From Sinorhizobium fredii NGR234 (GTDB lineage Bacteria; Pseudomonadota; Alphaproteobacteria; Rhizobiales; Rhizobiaceae): a stretch of 64,000 nucleotides of DNA. Shown piece after piece: positions 5,418 through 43,962 of the stretch. The position numbers and the translations under genes are program-made. A model generated the notes under the pieces. That model saw nothing but the letters and a program-made list of their open reading frames with translations, did not search any database and had not been told where the DNA came from. Where the stretch lies: contig NC_012587.1 in NCBI RefSeq assembly GCF_000018545.1, positions 3,861,703 through 3,925,702 of the forward strand, given 5' to 3'. Within the stretch, counting starts at the first letter, position 1; the number at the start of each line of letters is the position of its first letter.

Positions 5418-6542
5418 TCAATCGCCGTCGGCGAAGGAAAACCCGGCGCCGAGCCCGATCGCGCCGCCGAAGTCGCGGTTCAGCCGGTCGAGGAGGTCGG
5501 CGGTGTTGAGTGCGATGAAGTCGAGCCTTGCGCGTTGTTTCTCATCCGCCAGAACCGCATCGATCGGCCCCTCGACGCGGTCGGTCGCGCTGATCAGCGC
5601 CTTGAACAGAAAATTCAACGAGCCGGCGATCGAGCGGCTGTCGGCGGGAAGCAGCTTCTCCATGCCTGCGCTGTTGAAGAGCGCCTGCAGACCGCCGAGG
5701 TTCGCGGCAATGGACGCCATCGTGTTACCCGAGCGCCAGTAGATCGCGAGCTTCGGGCGGCCCTTGTCCGGCTTGCCATCGAGCGCCCCATCATAGAATG
5801 GGCGCAGCCGCTGGTCCTTGATCATCTCGACGCTGTGCACGAGAACCCCGAGCAGTTCCGTCGCCGCCTCCTTGCTGTCGCGGAAGAACGGGTTGCCGGG
5901 GCCGGGCGACTTCCAGGCAGACTGGACGCCATCGGGCTTCTCCCAGGCGGCGAGCAGCTCGTCGGCGATCGCCGTCAGGTTCTGGGAGATCGCCACTCCG
6001 TAACGGCAGCGAAAGCTGCCTCCCTTGCCGGCGAGCGTCTCCGCTCCGGTGCCGTAGAGAACATACTCGAAAGCGCCGAGCCCCTGCACGGCGACGCTCT
6101 TCCCCTTGAGACTGTCCGCCCTTGTCGCACTCTCGTCGTGCTTGGCAAGAATGGCCTGCACCTGCTTGAGACCAGTGCTCTTGCGATCGGGATAGAAAAG
6201 GAAGCGCTCGAACCGGTTCTGTTCGAGAGCCGGTCCAAGCCGGACGATTTCGATCGTCGACCATTTTCGTACGACATTCGAGAAGGCCGATCGGGTTTCC
6301 TCGAGCGCTGCGGCGGACGGTGTCGCGCAGAGCGCGGCGCTTTTCTCGGCAAGATCGGCCGTTGCCCGCGACAGGTCGCGGTATCCGGGAACGATGAAAC
6401 TATCCACCGCCTCTGCCATCACCCCCGGCAAGGCCGCTTCGTCGAGGACCCGCGGCGAAAGGGCAGTGCCCTCCTGTGCCGCTGCGGGCGCGGCGGCTGC
6501 AAGAAGCAGCAGGCCGAGGGTCAGAGGAAGCTTAAAGCGCAT
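5418..6542 (-). CDS. Second imelysin-family periplasmic protein
   Basis: A 374-residue protein with a Sec signal peptide (MRFKLPLTLG, a Leu/Ala-rich core, cleavage after AAA near residue 22) and an imelysin (peptidase M75-like) domain. Imelysins are periplasmic iron-uptake-associated proteins. The conserved GxHxxE motif is degenerate here: GLGAFEYVLYG (154-164) has Gly where IrpA has His. The ATG at 6542 overlaps the stop of the di-haem oxidoreductase by one base (TGATG), which implies translational coupling. The frame is open much further upstream but only as a shadow of that gene. Likely exported and iron-related; the precise role is unknown. Confidence 0.88.
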   Translation of the reverse strand: MRFKLPLTLGLLLLAAAAPAAAQEGTALSPRVLDEAALPGVMAEAVDSFIVPGYRDLSRATADLAEKSAALCATPSAAALEETRSAFSNVVRKWSTIEIVRLGPALEQNRFERFLFYPDRKSTGLKQVQAILAKHDESATRADSLKGKSVAVQGLGAFEYVLYGTGAETLAGKGGSFRCRYGVAISQNLTAIADELLAAWEKPDGVQSAWKSPGPGNPFFRDSKEAATELLGVLVHSVEMIKDQRLRPFYDGALDGKPDKGRPKLAIYWRSGNTMASIAANLGGLQALFNSAGMEKLLPADSRSIAGSLNFLFKALISATDRVEGPIDAVLADEKQRARLDFIALNTADLLDRLNRDFGGAIGLGAGFSFADGD

Positions 6543-8293
6543 CAGAGCGACTCCAGAAAGGAAAGCAGGGCGTTTCGGTCGTCCTTCGCCATGGTGGCGA
6601 AGGCATTGCGGGCCTTTTCCGCTTCTCCGCCGTGCCACAGGATGGCCTCGGTGGAATTGCGAGCCCGCCCGTCGTGGAGCAGGAATGTGTGACCGCTGAC
6701 CGTTTTGGTCAGGCCGATCCCCCAGAGCGGCGGCGTGCGCCATTCGCGCCCGCTGGCGACACCGACCTGCTGGCTGTCCGCCAGTTCCTCGCCCATGTCG
6801 TGCAGCAGGAAATCGGAATAGGGCCAGATCAGCTGGAACGCCAGTTCCTTGTGCGGTGCGTCGCGCCGGGTGACATATTTTGGCGTGTGACAGGCCGGAC
6901 AACCCGCTTCGTAGAAAAGCTGCTTGCCTTTCAGCGTTTGCGGAAAGCTCGCCTGGCGGCGGGCCGGGACTGCCAGGTTGGCGGAATAGAAGGTGACGAG
7001 GCCGAGCACCGGGTCGGGCGCCTCGACCGGCCCGAGCCGCGCCTGCACGCCGCTCGGCAGCTTCAGGCAGGCGTCCTGCGCCTCGGTGCAATCGCCGTGG
7101 CTGCGGCCCGAGGCAGGCGTGGAAATGCCGATGTCGGTGGCGAAGGCGTCGGCCGCCTGCTGGCGAATGGTCGCGTTCTGGGCCTTCCATCCGAAACGGC
7201 CGAGCGCGGTCGCGTTCCTGTCTCGGTCGCGGACGAGCGCCGCCCGTCCGCTGATGCCGTCGCCGTCCCGGTCGTCCGGATCGGCCCGCGCAAGAATGTT
7301 GGCCTCGTGGATCATTTCTATGAGGCCGAGGCCGATCATCGGCGGGGCGACGCGCGGCGACAGCGTCGTCGCCGGATGCAACGGGCCATAGCCGAGATCG
7401 GCAACCGCGTATTCGGGCTTGCGCAGCGAGACCGTCTCGCCTTCGGAAAGCGGCACCGTTGCTTCCGTATAGGTGACCGTGAGACGCCCTTCGGCGGCAA
7501 GCCCCGGCACGGCGCTGTCCTGCAATTGCGCGCCATAGACGGGATCAGGAAAGTTGAGCACCTGGTAATCGGCGACCATGCGGCGTTCGGCTTCGTCGCG
7601 CGGCGCACGGGCAAGACGGTAAACCGTCGACGTCGCGTCGCCTGCCTCGGGCGGGCGGCCGCGGCCGTCGCGCAGGTGGCAGCTCTCGCAGGCGCGGGCG
7701 TTGTAAAGCGGGCCGAGCCCGTCGGAGGCCTGCGTCGAGGAAGGGGCGGAGACCCAGAGCTTTTCGAACAGCGCCTTGCCGAGCTTGAAATTCTGCTCGT
7801 CCTCGAAGGGTAGATTGGCGGAGAATTGCTGGAAGACCTTCTGGTCGACCGGCGCGATCGTCGTCGTCGCGCCCGCCGACATCGCCTCGAAGGGTTCGGC
7901 CCTGGAGAAGTCGGTCGCCGGTCGAGTGACGGCCTCGACGCGCTGGAGGTCCTGTTCGGAAAGGTCGTCGCGTTGAGGGAGGCACCCCCCTCTGCCCTGC
8001 CGGGCATCTCCCCCACAAGGGGGGCGATCGGCAAACGGCGATGTCCCGCTCAGCGAATGGGGCTGGGCGAGTACCCTTGCAGTCGATGAAGGCGGCGCTT
8101 GCGACGTGTCCGTCGGGCAGGGCTCTGCTTCTGGCCAATCTCCCCCCTTGTGGGGGAGATGCCCGGCAGGGCAGAGGGGGGTATTGGCGCCGGCGCCGCG
8201 ACCGATACCCCCGCCAATCGCCGATGCCGTGGCGGCAAGGCCGACGAGCGCGGCGAGCGGCAGCGCGAGGAAGCGGGCGGTCGGGACCTTCAT
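6542..8293 (-). CDS. Di-haem oxidoreductase (DUF1111 / putative thiol oxidoreductase) with in-frame repeat insertion
   Basis: A 583-residue periplasmic protein of the di-haem oxidoreductase family, typically paired with imelysins. The N-terminus is a Sec signal (MKVPTARFLALPLAALVG, cleavage likely after ATASA). Two c-type haem sites are visible, CESCH near residue 205 and CPACH near residue 465. Residues ~35-105 are not native sequence: they are the in-frame translation of the inverted-repeat element at 7984-8182. Without it the protein would be about 516 residues, close to the usual family size. The open frame and intact haem motifs argue that the gene is still functional, with an extra Cys/Pro/Gly-rich N-terminal extension after the signal peptide. 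It lies between irpA and the second imelysin gene, in one transcription unit. Confidence 0.88.
   Translation of the reverse strand: MKVPTARFLALPLAALVGLAATASAIGGGIGRGAGANTPLCPAGHLPHKGGDWPEAEPCPTDTSQAPPSSTARVLAQPHSLSGTSPFADRPPCGGDARQGRGGCLPQRDDLSEQDLQRVEAVTRPATDFSRAEPFEAMSAGATTTIAPVDQKVFQQFSANLPFEDEQNFKLGKALFEKLWVSAPSSTQASDGLGPLYNARACESCHLRDGRGRPPEAGDATSTVYRLARAPRDEAERRMVADYQVLNFPDPVYGAQLQDSAVPGLAAEGRLTVTYTEATVPLSEGETVSLRKPEYAVADLGYGPLHPATTLSPRVAPPMIGLGLIEMIHEANILARADPDDRDGDGISGRAALVRDRDRNATALGRFGWKAQNATIRQQAADAFATDIGISTPASGRSHGDCTEAQDACLKLPSGVQARLGPVEAPDPVLGLVTFYSANLAVPARRQASFPQTLKGKQLFYEAGCPACHTPKYVTRRDAPHKELAFQLIWPYSDFLLHDMGEELADSQQVGVASGREWRTPPLWGIGLTKTVSGHTFLLHDGRARNSTEAILWHGGEAEKARNAFATMAKDDRNALLSFLESL
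7984..8182. repeat. Inverted-repeat mosaic element inserted inside a coding sequence
   Basis: About 199 bp with ~47-bp terminal inverted repeats. The left end starts ACCCCCCTCTGCCCTGCCGG and the right end is its mirror, CCGGCAGGGCAGAGGGGGGT. Each arm contains an internal hairpin (ATCTCCCCC-ACAAG-GGGGG). A second copy with the same arms but a diverged centre occurs at 43763-43962 in an intergenic region. Here it lies entirely within the di-haem oxidoreductase frame, without stop codons in that frame. Confidence 0.9.
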
Positions 8294-8341
8294 CGGGCAA
8301 GGGCCGGGCCGCGCCTTGTCGGAGCGACCCGCCTTTTCGGC

Positions 8342-9622
8342 TTATTGGAAAACCGCGTTAGGATTATCCAGGCTGTCGGAACCTTCAAGCTCGATTGTGC
8401 CGAGTTCGAGCGCCGCGATGACGCGCTCGACGGTCTTGGCCTGGGCGATCAGCCCGTCGATGGCGGCCTGAACGGTCGCATTGCCGTCCTTGTTGCCTTC
8501 GGCGATCATCTGGTCATAGGCCTCGCCAGCTTCGGCGCGCTTGGCCATCGCCTGCATCTTCTCGACGGTGGTTGCGAGATTGGTCGCCATCTCCTTGTCG
8601 AGCGCGGCGTCCTTGGCGGCGACGAGTTCGGACAGCGAGGGGCCGGCAAGCTTCGTGCCGTCGACCCGGGTATATTCGCCGGTATAGGCCGACTGGATGC
8701 CGATCGCATCGTGCAGATGCGAATTATGGGTGTTGTCCGAGGAGCAGTCGTGTTCTTCTTCCGGATCGTGCAGCAGCAGGCCGAGCTTCATGCGCTCGCC
8801 GGCCAGTTCCCCATAGGAGAGCGAGCCCATGCCGGTGAGAATCGCCGCGAGACCGGCCTTGGGGTCCGCTTCCACTGCCTTGGCCGCGGCACCTTCCGGC
8901 GCCCAATTGGCGACCATTTCCTTGAGGTCGGCGACGAGCAGGTCGGTCGCCGCCTTCAGGTAGGCAGCGCGGCGGTCGCAATTGCCGTTCGTGCAGGCTT
9001 TGGTGTCGAAATCGGTATAGGTGCGCTTGCCGGCGCCCGGGCCGGTGCCGTTCAGATCCTGGCCCCACAGCAGGAACTCGATGGCGTGGTAGCCGGTCGC
9101 GACATTCGCTTCGATGCCGCCGGCTTCCTGCAGCGTGCCGGCCAGGAATTCCGGCGTGATGTTCGTCGCGTCGACGTCCTTGCCGTCGATCTTGATCGTC
9201 TTGTTGGCGATGACGTTGGCGGTGAAGAGCGCGTTCTCGTCGCTCTCCGTGCCGTAGCTCGGATCGACATAGTCGATCAGGCCCTCATCGAGCGGCCAGG
9301 CGTTCACCTTGCCTTCCCATTCGTCCACGATCGCATTGCCGAAGCGGTAGACCTCGGTCTCCTGGTAAGGGTTGCGGGCCTTGAGCCAGGCGTCGCGCGC
9401 CGCCTTCAGCGTCTCTTCGCTTGGGCCTGCGATCAGTGCATCGACCGCCTTGTCGAGCGCCTCGGCCGTTGTCAGTGCGTCCTCGTATTTGGCGTGCGCG
9501 ACGGCGGCATAGTGTTTGACGACCGCAGCGGCATCCGTCGCGGCGCTGGCCGGCTGCAGAGCAAGCACGGACGTGGCCGTCATGAGTGCCAGCGCAGCGG
9601 CGCGGATGAAATTCTTGGTCAT
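8342..9622 (-). CDS. irpA: Imelysin-family iron-regulated periplasmic protein (IrpA-like)
   Basis: A 426-residue imelysin protein. The Sec signal peptide ends at PASA (residues 24-27). The signature GxHxxE is intact as GYHAIEFLLWG (177-187), and the motif YQETEVYRFG near residue 86 is typical of the IrpA/ICMP group. The C-terminal part contains a His/Cys/Asp-rich loop (DPEEEHDCSS, NSHLHDA), a candidate metal-binding segment. It is the promoter-proximal gene of the cluster, 48 bp before the di-haem oxidoreductase gene. An Irr-like element (9718-9734) lies about 100 bp upstream, which fits iron-responsive control. The ATG at 9622 gives the signal peptide directly. Confidence 0.9.
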   Translation of the reverse strand: MTKNFIRAAALALMTATSVLALQPASAATDAAAVVKHYAAVAHAKYEDALTTAEALDKAVDALIAGPSEETLKAARDAWLKARNPYQETEVYRFGNAIVDEWEGKVNAWPLDEGLIDYVDPSYGTESDENALFTANVIANKTIKIDGKDVDATNITPEFLAGTLQEAGGIEANVATGYHAIEFLLWGQDLNGTGPGAGKRTYTDFDTKACTNGNCDRRAAYLKAATDLLVADLKEMVANWAPEGAAAKAVEADPKAGLAAILTGMGSLSYGELAGERMKLGLLLHDPEEEHDCSSDNTHNSHLHDAIGIQSAYTGEYTRVDGTKLAGPSLSELVAAKDAALDKEMATNLATTVEKMQAMAKRAEAGEAYDQMIAEGNKDGNATVQAAIDGLIAQAKTVERVIAALELGTIELEGSDSLDNPNAVFQ

Positions 9623-14760: not shown

Positions 14761-14862
14761 CGATGATCAGATTGCAGCTGTTTTTCGGGGATCTGCAGCG
14801 CCGTGCGTCTTTTCAGACGCACCAGGACGCTGCAGCACTTTGAATCGCTCGCATGCTTTGAT

Positions 14863-14885
14863 CCTTAAATCGGCTCGATTTAAGG
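14863..14885. repeat. 23-bp palindrome in uppP upstream region
   Basis: Ten-bp arms CCTTAAATCG and CGATTTAAGG are perfectly complementary around GCT. It lies in the gap between the divergent GST and uppP genes, next to a GCAGCACTTTGAATC stretch of the kind repeated in rhizobial intergenic regions. It could be a REP-like repeat or an operator. Confidence 0.5.
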
Positions 14886-15019
14886 AAACATGCAGTCGGC
14901 ATCGCGGCATATGCAACTGGCCACGGCTTCATACAACGAGCTATAGGTAGTTGCGGTGGCAAACACAAGAGAATCGACCTCCTCCTCCCAAATCCAAGAA
15001 TATCAGGAAACGTTCATAT

Positions 15020-29530: not shown

Positions 29531-29705
29531 GCTTCGGTCTCCTTGCCTAAGCGCCTCACGCATTCTACATGTTGCGGGCGCCTTGGCGGCCTCTTGTCTG
29601 TCGGAGCCGATCAGGGCCGCCGTAGCGCTTTGAATTGCTGTGTAATTCGCCTCATAGCGATGCCCACTGGGCTTATACGGCGAAGATCCAACCAGGAACG
29701 GTAGA

Positions 29706-34412: not shown

Positions 34413-35150
34413 ATGCCTCACCGATCAAGGTCATTCAGCTTGACCTCGGCCCATGTCGCGCAGGTGCACAGAGCGGTTGCGGACAGCGGCCCGGGACCTG
34501 GGATGAAACTGCATACAGACGCGGACTATGACGACTGGGTGGCGCGGATGACGAGGAGCCATCCGGCTCCCGGCTCGCCGACCTTGCTCTTCGCCTATGG
34601 ATCATTGATCTGGAGGCCGGAGATCGACCATGTCGGAGAGGAGATCGGCATCGCCCGCGGCTGGCATCGGTCCTTCTGCTTCCGGATGCTCCGTTTTCGG
34701 GGAACACCCGAAGAGCCGGGGCTTATGATGGCTCTCGATCGGGGAGGTCAGTGCCGGGGCGTTCTTTACGAACTGCCGAGCGACGACCTCGAAGGGCAAC
34801 TCGCAAGGCTGTTCCGGCGTGAGTTCACCTACAAGCCGCCCAACAGCATGCCCCGCTGGATCAAGGTCGAGACGGCGCACGGTTATGTTCCCGCCTTGGG
34901 TTTCGTCATGAACCGCGCTTCGCCATTCTATGCCGGACGTCTTCCCCTCGAAGCCGTCGCCGAAGTCCTGGCCCGAGCCTGCGGTCATGTCGGCTCGGGC
35001 GCGGAGTACCTCCTCAATACCGTGACGCATCTCGAGGCCAGGGGCATCCGGGATCGCAATTTGTGGCGTCTGCAAGCGCTCGTAGCGGAGTGCATCGAGC
35101 GCAGCACGACGGCGCCGCGCGTCTCATCAGACGCGCAAGGGTCGCGTTAG
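34413..35150 (+). CDS. ChaC-like gamma-glutamylcyclotransferase
   Basis: A 245-residue protein of the ChaC group. The phosphate-like binding loop LLFAYGSLIWRPE is near residue 55, the catalytic-Glu region GTPEEPGLMMALD near residue 95, and the terminal segment YLLNTVTHLEARGIRDRNLW near residue 200. ChaC enzymes degrade glutathione to 5-oxoproline and Cys-Gly. The start is an ATG at 34413 with GGAG upstream. The C-terminal ~20 residues are variable. It converges on the NIPSNAP gene, leaving a gap of two bases. Confidence 0.85.
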   Translation: MPHRSRSFSLTSAHVAQVHRAVADSGPGPGMKLHTDADYDDWVARMTRSHPAPGSPTLLFAYGSLIWRPEIDHVGEEIGIARGWHRSFCFRMLRFRGTPEEPGLMMALDRGGQCRGVLYELPSDDLEGQLARLFRREFTYKPPNSMPRWIKVETAHGYVPALGFVMNRASPFYAGRLPLEAVAEVLARACGHVGSGAEYLLNTVTHLEARGIRDRNLWRLQALVAECIERSTTAPRVSSDAQGSR

Positions 35151-43762: not shown

Positions 43763-43962
43763 ACCCCCCTCTGCCCTGCCGGGCATCTCCCCCACAAGGG
43801 GGGAGATTGGCAAGTGGCGATGTCCCGATCCGCCCGGCCGCTCTGAGAGGATGCTATTGAAATTGACGCGTTCGGCGTTTGTAAGCTCACTGTAGGGCGG
43901 GGCTTTGCTTCCGGCCAATCTCCCTCCTTGTGGGGGAGATGCCCGGCAGGGCAGAGGGGGGT
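43763..43962. repeat. Inverted-repeat mosaic element (intergenic copy)
   Basis: About 200 bp with the same ~47-bp terminal inverted repeats as 7984-8182 (starting ACCCCCCTCTGCCCTGCCGG) and with conserved GGCGATGTCCCG and GCTTTGCTTC blocks inside the arms. The central ~100 bp is diverged. It fills the gap between the epimerase and GFA genes, so here it is neutral. Confidence 0.9.

Follow-up and report, generated by a model that had tools for sequence, protein, structure and literature searches.

A palindromic repeat read in frame in the DHOR, FtsY and CobN genes of Sinorhizobium is probably an old passenger with arms constrained as nucleic acid

Introduction

Why does the gene for an exported haem protein carry a palindromic repeat that can be read through as protein, and what has kept the repeat there? 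We address this question for a DHOR gene of Sinorhizobium fredii NGR234, located in a stretch of 64,000 nucleotides (contig NC_012587.1, positions 3,861,703 to 3,925,702), hereafter called the window. The original prediction for this locus, made from the DNA letters, was that an inverted-repeat element of ~199 bp lies in frame just behind the signal peptide and that a new N-terminal protein segment is being born from it. We found the element in place, in frame, at window positions 7984-8182, and arrived at a different account of it. Most probably (probability about 0.8), it is an old translated passenger sitting in permissive linkers, with its arms under constraint at the nucleic-acid level. 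The protein segment itself looks near-neutral.

Palindromic repeats read in frame are best known from Rickettsia. Here, a free-living genus has one family of them in at least three of its genes, and the insertions can be dated by orthology and compared with intergenic copies. The choice between a passenger, a new protein and a nucleic-acid signal becomes testable in this setting: at synonymous positions, the arms look constrained.

Results

The host gene (6542-8293, minus strand) is an open reading frame (ORF) of 583 codons, stop-free throughout, the element included. Its product belongs to the DHOR family (PF06537) by a Pfam match above the cut-off (E 2e-87, residues 139-583) together with two CxxCH motifs (residues 202-206 and 465-469). 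As predicted, both haem motifs (CESCH and CPACH) were intact by reading, and so was the signal-peptide-like N-terminus MKVPTARFLALPLAALVGLAATASA (8219-8293, minus strand), which was likewise recognised by reading. The element sits in a linker: the Pfam match does not begin until residue 139, and in an alignment of 35 DHOR sequences the first invariant column is at residue 108. No solved structure matched the host protein at E 0.001.

Sequence reading and alignment placed the ends of the element at A7984 (ACCCCCCTCTGCC...) and T8182 (...GGCAGAGGGGGGT), with the terminal consensus ACCCCC/GGGGGT. At the protein level, the arm at 7984-8028 (plus strand) corresponds to the C-terminal end of the insert and the inverted arm at 8138-8182 (minus strand) to TPLCPAGHLPHKGGD at its N-terminal end. 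Inverted repeats are thus present, each measuring 45 bp instead of the predicted ~47 bp, and the first arm differs from the reverse complement of the second at 1 of 45 positions. The arm consensus consists of two adjacent hairpins, TGCCC/GGGCA and ATCTCCCCC/GGGGGAGAT. Between the arms lies a spacer of 109 bp (8029-8137), which is fast evolving by orthologue comparison and differs in length among DHOR orthologues by multiples of three. The 199 bp alone do not make up a whole number of codons; with flanking bases, the translated segment comprises residues 38-104, that is 67 codons without an in-frame stop, close to the ~66 residues first proposed.

Folding of 7974-8192 yielded -152.3 kcal/mol, against a mean of -95.2 for shuffled sequences (z -11.7). 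In the NGR234 genome (G000), the arm pattern, allowing up to 3 mismatches, gave 59 matches and the reversed control pattern 0. Because of the fold score and these counts, we do not attribute the palindromic nature of the element to chance. The element has the properties of a miniature inverted-repeat transposable element (MITE): terminal inverted repeats, a length below 300 bp, no transposase gene and many copies. Rfam returned no match for 7700-8500 up to E 1, and inspection by eye of the sequence flanking 63 full copies revealed no consistent target site duplication.

A second full copy, at 43763-43962, is 80% identical to the DHOR element over positions 1-199 and lies between reading frames (by reading), as had been claimed. 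Its orthologous copies in genomes G006, G010, G021 and G002 served as a non-coding control. The 59 dispersed arms bear out the idea of a mobile repeat. On contig C1 of NGR234 (~0.54 Mb), 0 of the 59 were found. With the same pattern, all 33 genomes of the genus (Sinorhizobium/Ensifer) contained arms (1 to 93 each), as did 65 of 151 genomes and 51 of 109 genera in the family, with up to 304 arms per genome; the control gave 0 in both searches. Two genomes of one genus (code g50), G081 and G172, stood far above the other family genomes searched, with 292 and 304 arms. All these counts rest on the arm pattern; the list of full copies obtained by similarity in the genome is a lower bound, with 40 of 89 candidate places scored. 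The family is stop-poor: among 58 full dispersed copies, 191 of 348 frames were open.

The comparison of related strains, proposed with the original prediction, covered the DHOR locus in 30 of the 33 genus genomes, all of which match the DHOR protein (G022, G012 and G020 yielded no locus). The full element was present at the same site and in frame with the domain in 20 loci, partial in 3 (G011, G015 and G001) and absent from 7; G018 and G029 retain a few bases resembling one element end. Orthologues without the element still have an N-terminus similar to the signal-peptide-like one. Because whole or partial in-frame deletions have removed the segment in several lineages, it looks dispensable. 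In a tree of host codons (34 rows), both branches of the first split within the genus contained carriers, and the pattern of presence required at least 5 changes, fitting one gain and four losses. Judged from these sequences, the DHOR insertion is older than the radiation of the genus and reaches back to its base. A recent or strain-specific insertion is ruled out by carriers in 20 of 30 loci that span the first split, and the notion of a newly born segment falls with it.

We also compared 80 named loci, 67 of them from outside Sinorhizobium/Ensifer (L068-L134; translations were inspected for part of them). In 66 of these 67, the match begins only at query residue 102-108. Public protein records matching residues 38-104 were DHOR proteins in 8 of 11 cases. 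The remaining locus of the 67 (L077), from another Rhizobiales genome, has in this DHOR linker a different, short arm pair that is in frame and lacks a spacer; it may stem from an independent insertion.

The reading frame is kept in the DHOR insert. All 20 full copies had an insert length divisible by three, and in 19 of them the signal peptide was in frame with the element; among intergenic orthologues, 2 of 11 non-zero net length differences were multiples of three. In one locus (L031, G007), a frameshift separates the signal peptide from the DHOR domain, owing to sequencing error or decay. The 20 full copies, which are related by descent, all retain the four cysteines of the insert, and the codon of the second (Cys2) is TGC in every one, with adjacent codons varying. 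Among 22 dispersed arms whose subterminal stretch could be recognised, 15 have the T, 19 the G and 21 the C of this codon.

A search for other coding insertions found the family in frame in FtsY and CobN. It is therefore not peculiar to a periplasmic haem protein, and its presence in unrelated genes bears out the likeness to Rickettsia palindromic elements (RPEs) drawn in the original prediction. FtsY is an essential protein. In NGR234 (L177, G000:C3:3387643-3390274), two copies are in frame in its acidic N-terminal region, between the conserved N-terminus and the NG domain. FtsY was matched in 33 of 33 genus genomes and parsed in 29 of 30 loci (L212 was not found); all 29 contain arm-derived peptides, one locus being partial (L218, G007). 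Up to three left arms were present (in G031 and G032), and the arm peptides are worn in the G013/G014/G022 group. Because three Rhizobium FtsY proteins contain the same arm-derived peptides, the insertion in FtsY may be older than the genus and its split from Rhizobium.

In CobN (L180, G000:C3:1875503-1877703), the element is read in frame in the central part of the protein. Among the 27 of 30 loci parsed (G010, G024 and G003 were not counted), 14 carry the insert and 13 do not, several of the latter having short remnants. In several other species, a further element lies elsewhere in an ORF equal in length to CobN. A PbpC-like ORF, named by reading, has the element near its N-terminus with the frame open (L195, G000:C2:1261324-1261528; L281; L300). 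Length differences there were 0 and -9, and since its start codon is uncertain, it is a candidate coding insertion only.

The arms of all three genes were conserved at synonymous sites. We determined synonymous divergence (dS) from 190 pairs for DHOR, 378 pairs for FtsY (28 sequences, leaving out the partial L218) and 77 pairs for CobN (13 sequences, leaving out the truncated G018 and the pair G031/G032). In DHOR, dS was 0.026 in the N-terminal arm and 0.105 in the C-terminal arm, against 0.552 in the spacer and 0.670 in the host. CobN behaved similarly, with 0.067 and 0.028 in the arms, 0.820 in the spacer and 0.597 in the host. In FtsY, the pooled arms had a dS of 0.175 (L1 0.356, R1 0.142, L2 0.095, R2 0.160), compared with 1.066 and 0.879 in the spacers and 0.463 in the NG domain. 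Thus, synonymous change in the arms is 2.6- to 26-fold below that of the host, and conservation is weaker in FtsY than in DHOR and CobN. Counting changes at fourfold sites on the tree gave 0.37 in the DHOR arms (n=19) versus 2.83 in the host (n=218; p 1.1e-9), and 1.45 in the FtsY arms (n=29) versus 3.19 (n=176; p 1.3e-5).

The ratio of nonsynonymous to synonymous divergence (dN/dS) was 2.17 and 0.19 for the two DHOR arms, 0.69-0.94 for the FtsY arms and 1.12 and 2.00 for the CobN arms. In the spacers, it was 0.60 (DHOR), 0.43 and 0.59 (FtsY) and 0.79 (CobN), and 14 intergenic orthologous spacer pairs read in six arbitrary frames gave 0.71-0.91. Spacer residues appear at most weakly constrained. 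The right arm is read in different frames, PPCGGDARQGRGG in DHOR and SPLVGEMPGRAEGG in FtsY and CobN. Since it is conserved in both, a general cause at the peptide level is unlikely; the conserved arm peptides reflect conserved DNA.

One pair of the first hairpin covaried among the arms of the fetched loci (C-G 227, G-C 33, T-A 20), and such exchanges also appear among arms from the wider family and from CobN. A further 35 C-A cells at this pair are attributed mainly to a one-base register offset of the FtsY left arms. The G073 and G049 rows have swaps at two neighbouring pairs.

Between intergenic orthologues (16 of 18 pairs, two PbpC pairs being left out), the arms showed 64 differences in 1248 positions, the spacers 431 in 1627 and the flanks 551 in 1741; the arm figure is biased low because most pairs were located via their arms. 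The DHOR arms differed at 14 of 390 positions in five comparable pairs. Among 14 loci with a full arm pair in a relative, 5 are without a complete pair in NGR234 and 1 more has a worn arm (7 mismatches).

Discussion

We propose that a palindromic element of the Rhizobiaceae, GC-rich and non-autonomous, entered the permissive linker that joins the signal peptide to the DHOR domain, and did so before the radiation of the genus. The exported protein would then start with a segment rich in Pro, Gly, Ser and Cys. Reading through the element is possible since stop codons are rare in it and its net length preserved the frame. The DHOR segment is probably translated in the cell, as a tolerated passenger and not a new functional domain, and would form a loosely folded tail. 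The arms may be kept by selection on the hairpin or on a sequence recognised in DNA or mRNA, and selection on nucleic acid seems to account for them better than selection on the peptide. More tentatively, and at somewhat less than even odds, they are a functional nucleic-acid site, a hairpin pair, that selection has retained inside the FtsY, CobN and DHOR genes since the origin of the genus or longer; the host protein would merely tolerate its translation, and the genes would carry two overlapping messages. If confirmed, the arms of small repeats would form a class of functional sites that reside within genes. Selection building a protein segment would seem weakly supported at best.

Several observations weigh against this reading. 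The constraint on the arms extends beyond the coding copies, as arms are conserved outside genes too. The contrast in conservation between stems and loops was weak, with stems not clearly favoured (FtsY left arms, whose ungapped register is off by one base, were excluded). The dS of FtsY arm L1 is near the host value. The C-terminal DHOR arm has a dN/dS close to that of the host (0.19 versus 0.15) with a dS that is also low, and some peptide-level constraint on it is possible. The spacer dN/dS of DHOR and FtsY falls below the intergenic range. The DHOR arms equal or nearly equal the genome-wide consensus, so that gene conversion is possible there. Finally, an AlphaFold model of DHOR (35 sequences) had a mean predicted local distance difference test (pLDDT) score of 38, too poor for showing disorder.

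Gene conversion from the dozens of dispersed copies might by itself have made the arms uniform, the insertion being an ordinary old passenger. Besides the consensus-like DHOR arms, CobN is consistent with this: of its 13 left arms, 10 have the T-A pair and one is mismatched, and the two of the C-G type are from G000, where that type is common, and G007. However, conversion tracts would need to end at the arm edges, since the spacers diverge. Moreover, a search of 33 genomes for the FtsY left-arm variant (up to 3 mismatches, ungapped) placed 41 of 42 matches in FtsY, from 27 of the 33 genomes, and the sole match elsewhere has 3 mismatches. Because the variant is so confined, conversion alone hardly explains this arm, and the L2 arm, which is of the FtsY-specific variant, nonetheless has a dS of 0.095, against 0.463 for the NG domain. 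Donors are also few in G005, as this genome has 11 arms and 6 of its 7 zero-mismatch arms lie in DHOR, FtsY and CobN. The FtsY variant and G005 argue against conversion as the sole cause, and we regard this explanation as unlikely.

A domesticated protein part, with selection acting on amino acids such as the four cysteines in DHOR or the acidity in FtsY, is rather improbable. It would fit the four cysteines of all 20 DHOR inserts with their invariant Cys2 codon, the dN/dS of the C-terminal DHOR arm, the spacer ratios of DHOR and FtsY, and the acidic character (by reading) of the element-bearing FtsY region. Yet the 20 inserts behind the cysteine count are related by descent, the other arms combine a dN/dS of 0.69-2.2 with low dS, the CobN spacer is inside the intergenic range, and in-frame loss has occurred repeatedly in DHOR and CobN.

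That the segment is absent from the mature protein, whether through a start codon further downstream or through a silent gene, would agree with the out-of-frame signal peptide of G007. We consider this very improbable, given that 19 of 20 full carriers have the signal-peptide-like N-terminus upstream of the element and in frame with it, that the lengths of all 20 full DHOR inserts are multiples of three, and that the FtsY copies lie between a conserved N-terminus and the NG domain. Lastly, a segment native to DHOR, from which the intergenic copies derive, could appeal to its wide presence in the genus alone and is hardly credible, being contradicted by the 7 of 30 genus loci without it and the 66 of 67 named loci outside the genus whose match starts only at residue 102-108 (so that carriage by all homologues, the sign of nativeness named beforehand, was not found) and by the dispersal of the family across 51 of 109 genera and into other genes.

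The passenger reading places the element beside known repeats. RPEs are described in passages of earlier reports as palindromic repeats of ~100-150 bp that occur in frame in unrelated protein genes and also between genes (PMC10969869, PMC2229807, PMC3733652). The rhizobial element works like an RPE, being likewise in frame within unrelated protein genes as well as intergenic; the likeness drawn here is one of behaviour. It differs in belonging to another bacterial family, in its 199 bp, two-hairpin arms of 45 bp and GC-richness, and in having orthologous copies across a genus that differ little at the synonymous sites of their arms. ERIC/RU and REP are small repeats that, according to parts of two papers, are translated within enterobacterial and other genes (PMC2759123, PMC3733652), and in this read-through inside genes they resemble the element. 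Unlike REP, the consensus of the element, by reading, has no GTAG or CGTC tetranucleotide at its termini. In the same excerpts, ERIC/RU/REP sites common to several species are rarely noted, examples being recB of two Xanthomonas (PMC3733652) and a Salmonella protein (PMC2759123).

In the mitochondria of Nematomorpha, long inverted repeats are found in coding genes, with nucleic-acid structure and protein maintained together (PMC6649704). The rhizobial arms differ in stemming from a dispersed repeat and in a constraint that looks DNA- or RNA-level. A section of a 2024 MITE review deems it conceivable that proteins of other prokaryotes were shaped by a process like that in Rickettsia (PMC10969869). 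In the open-licence literature, we found no report of in-frame rhizobial palindromic elements in FtsY, CobN or DHOR.

Neighbouring genes and other repeats

The DHOR gene is flanked on either side by imelysin (Peptidase_M75) genes, identified from the ORF list and Pfam. One lies at 8342-9622 and the other at 5418-6566 (start approximate), both on the minus strand.

RIME1 is a rhizobial intergenic palindromic mosaic element known from the genome of NGR234 itself. We take the duplicated ~105-bp repeat in the chvI-chvG spacer of this strain to be RIME1. An identity of the DHOR element with RIME1 was ruled out, as it had only chance-level matches (longest 8 bases) to that repeat. RIME2, sought behind chvI in four genomes, was not located; the stretch there did not match the presumed RIME1 repeat and resembled the element at chance level only. 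The window does contain a copy of the chvI-chvG repeat, at 14793-14895 and 88% identical, with fragments at 35109-35145 and 29615-29640.
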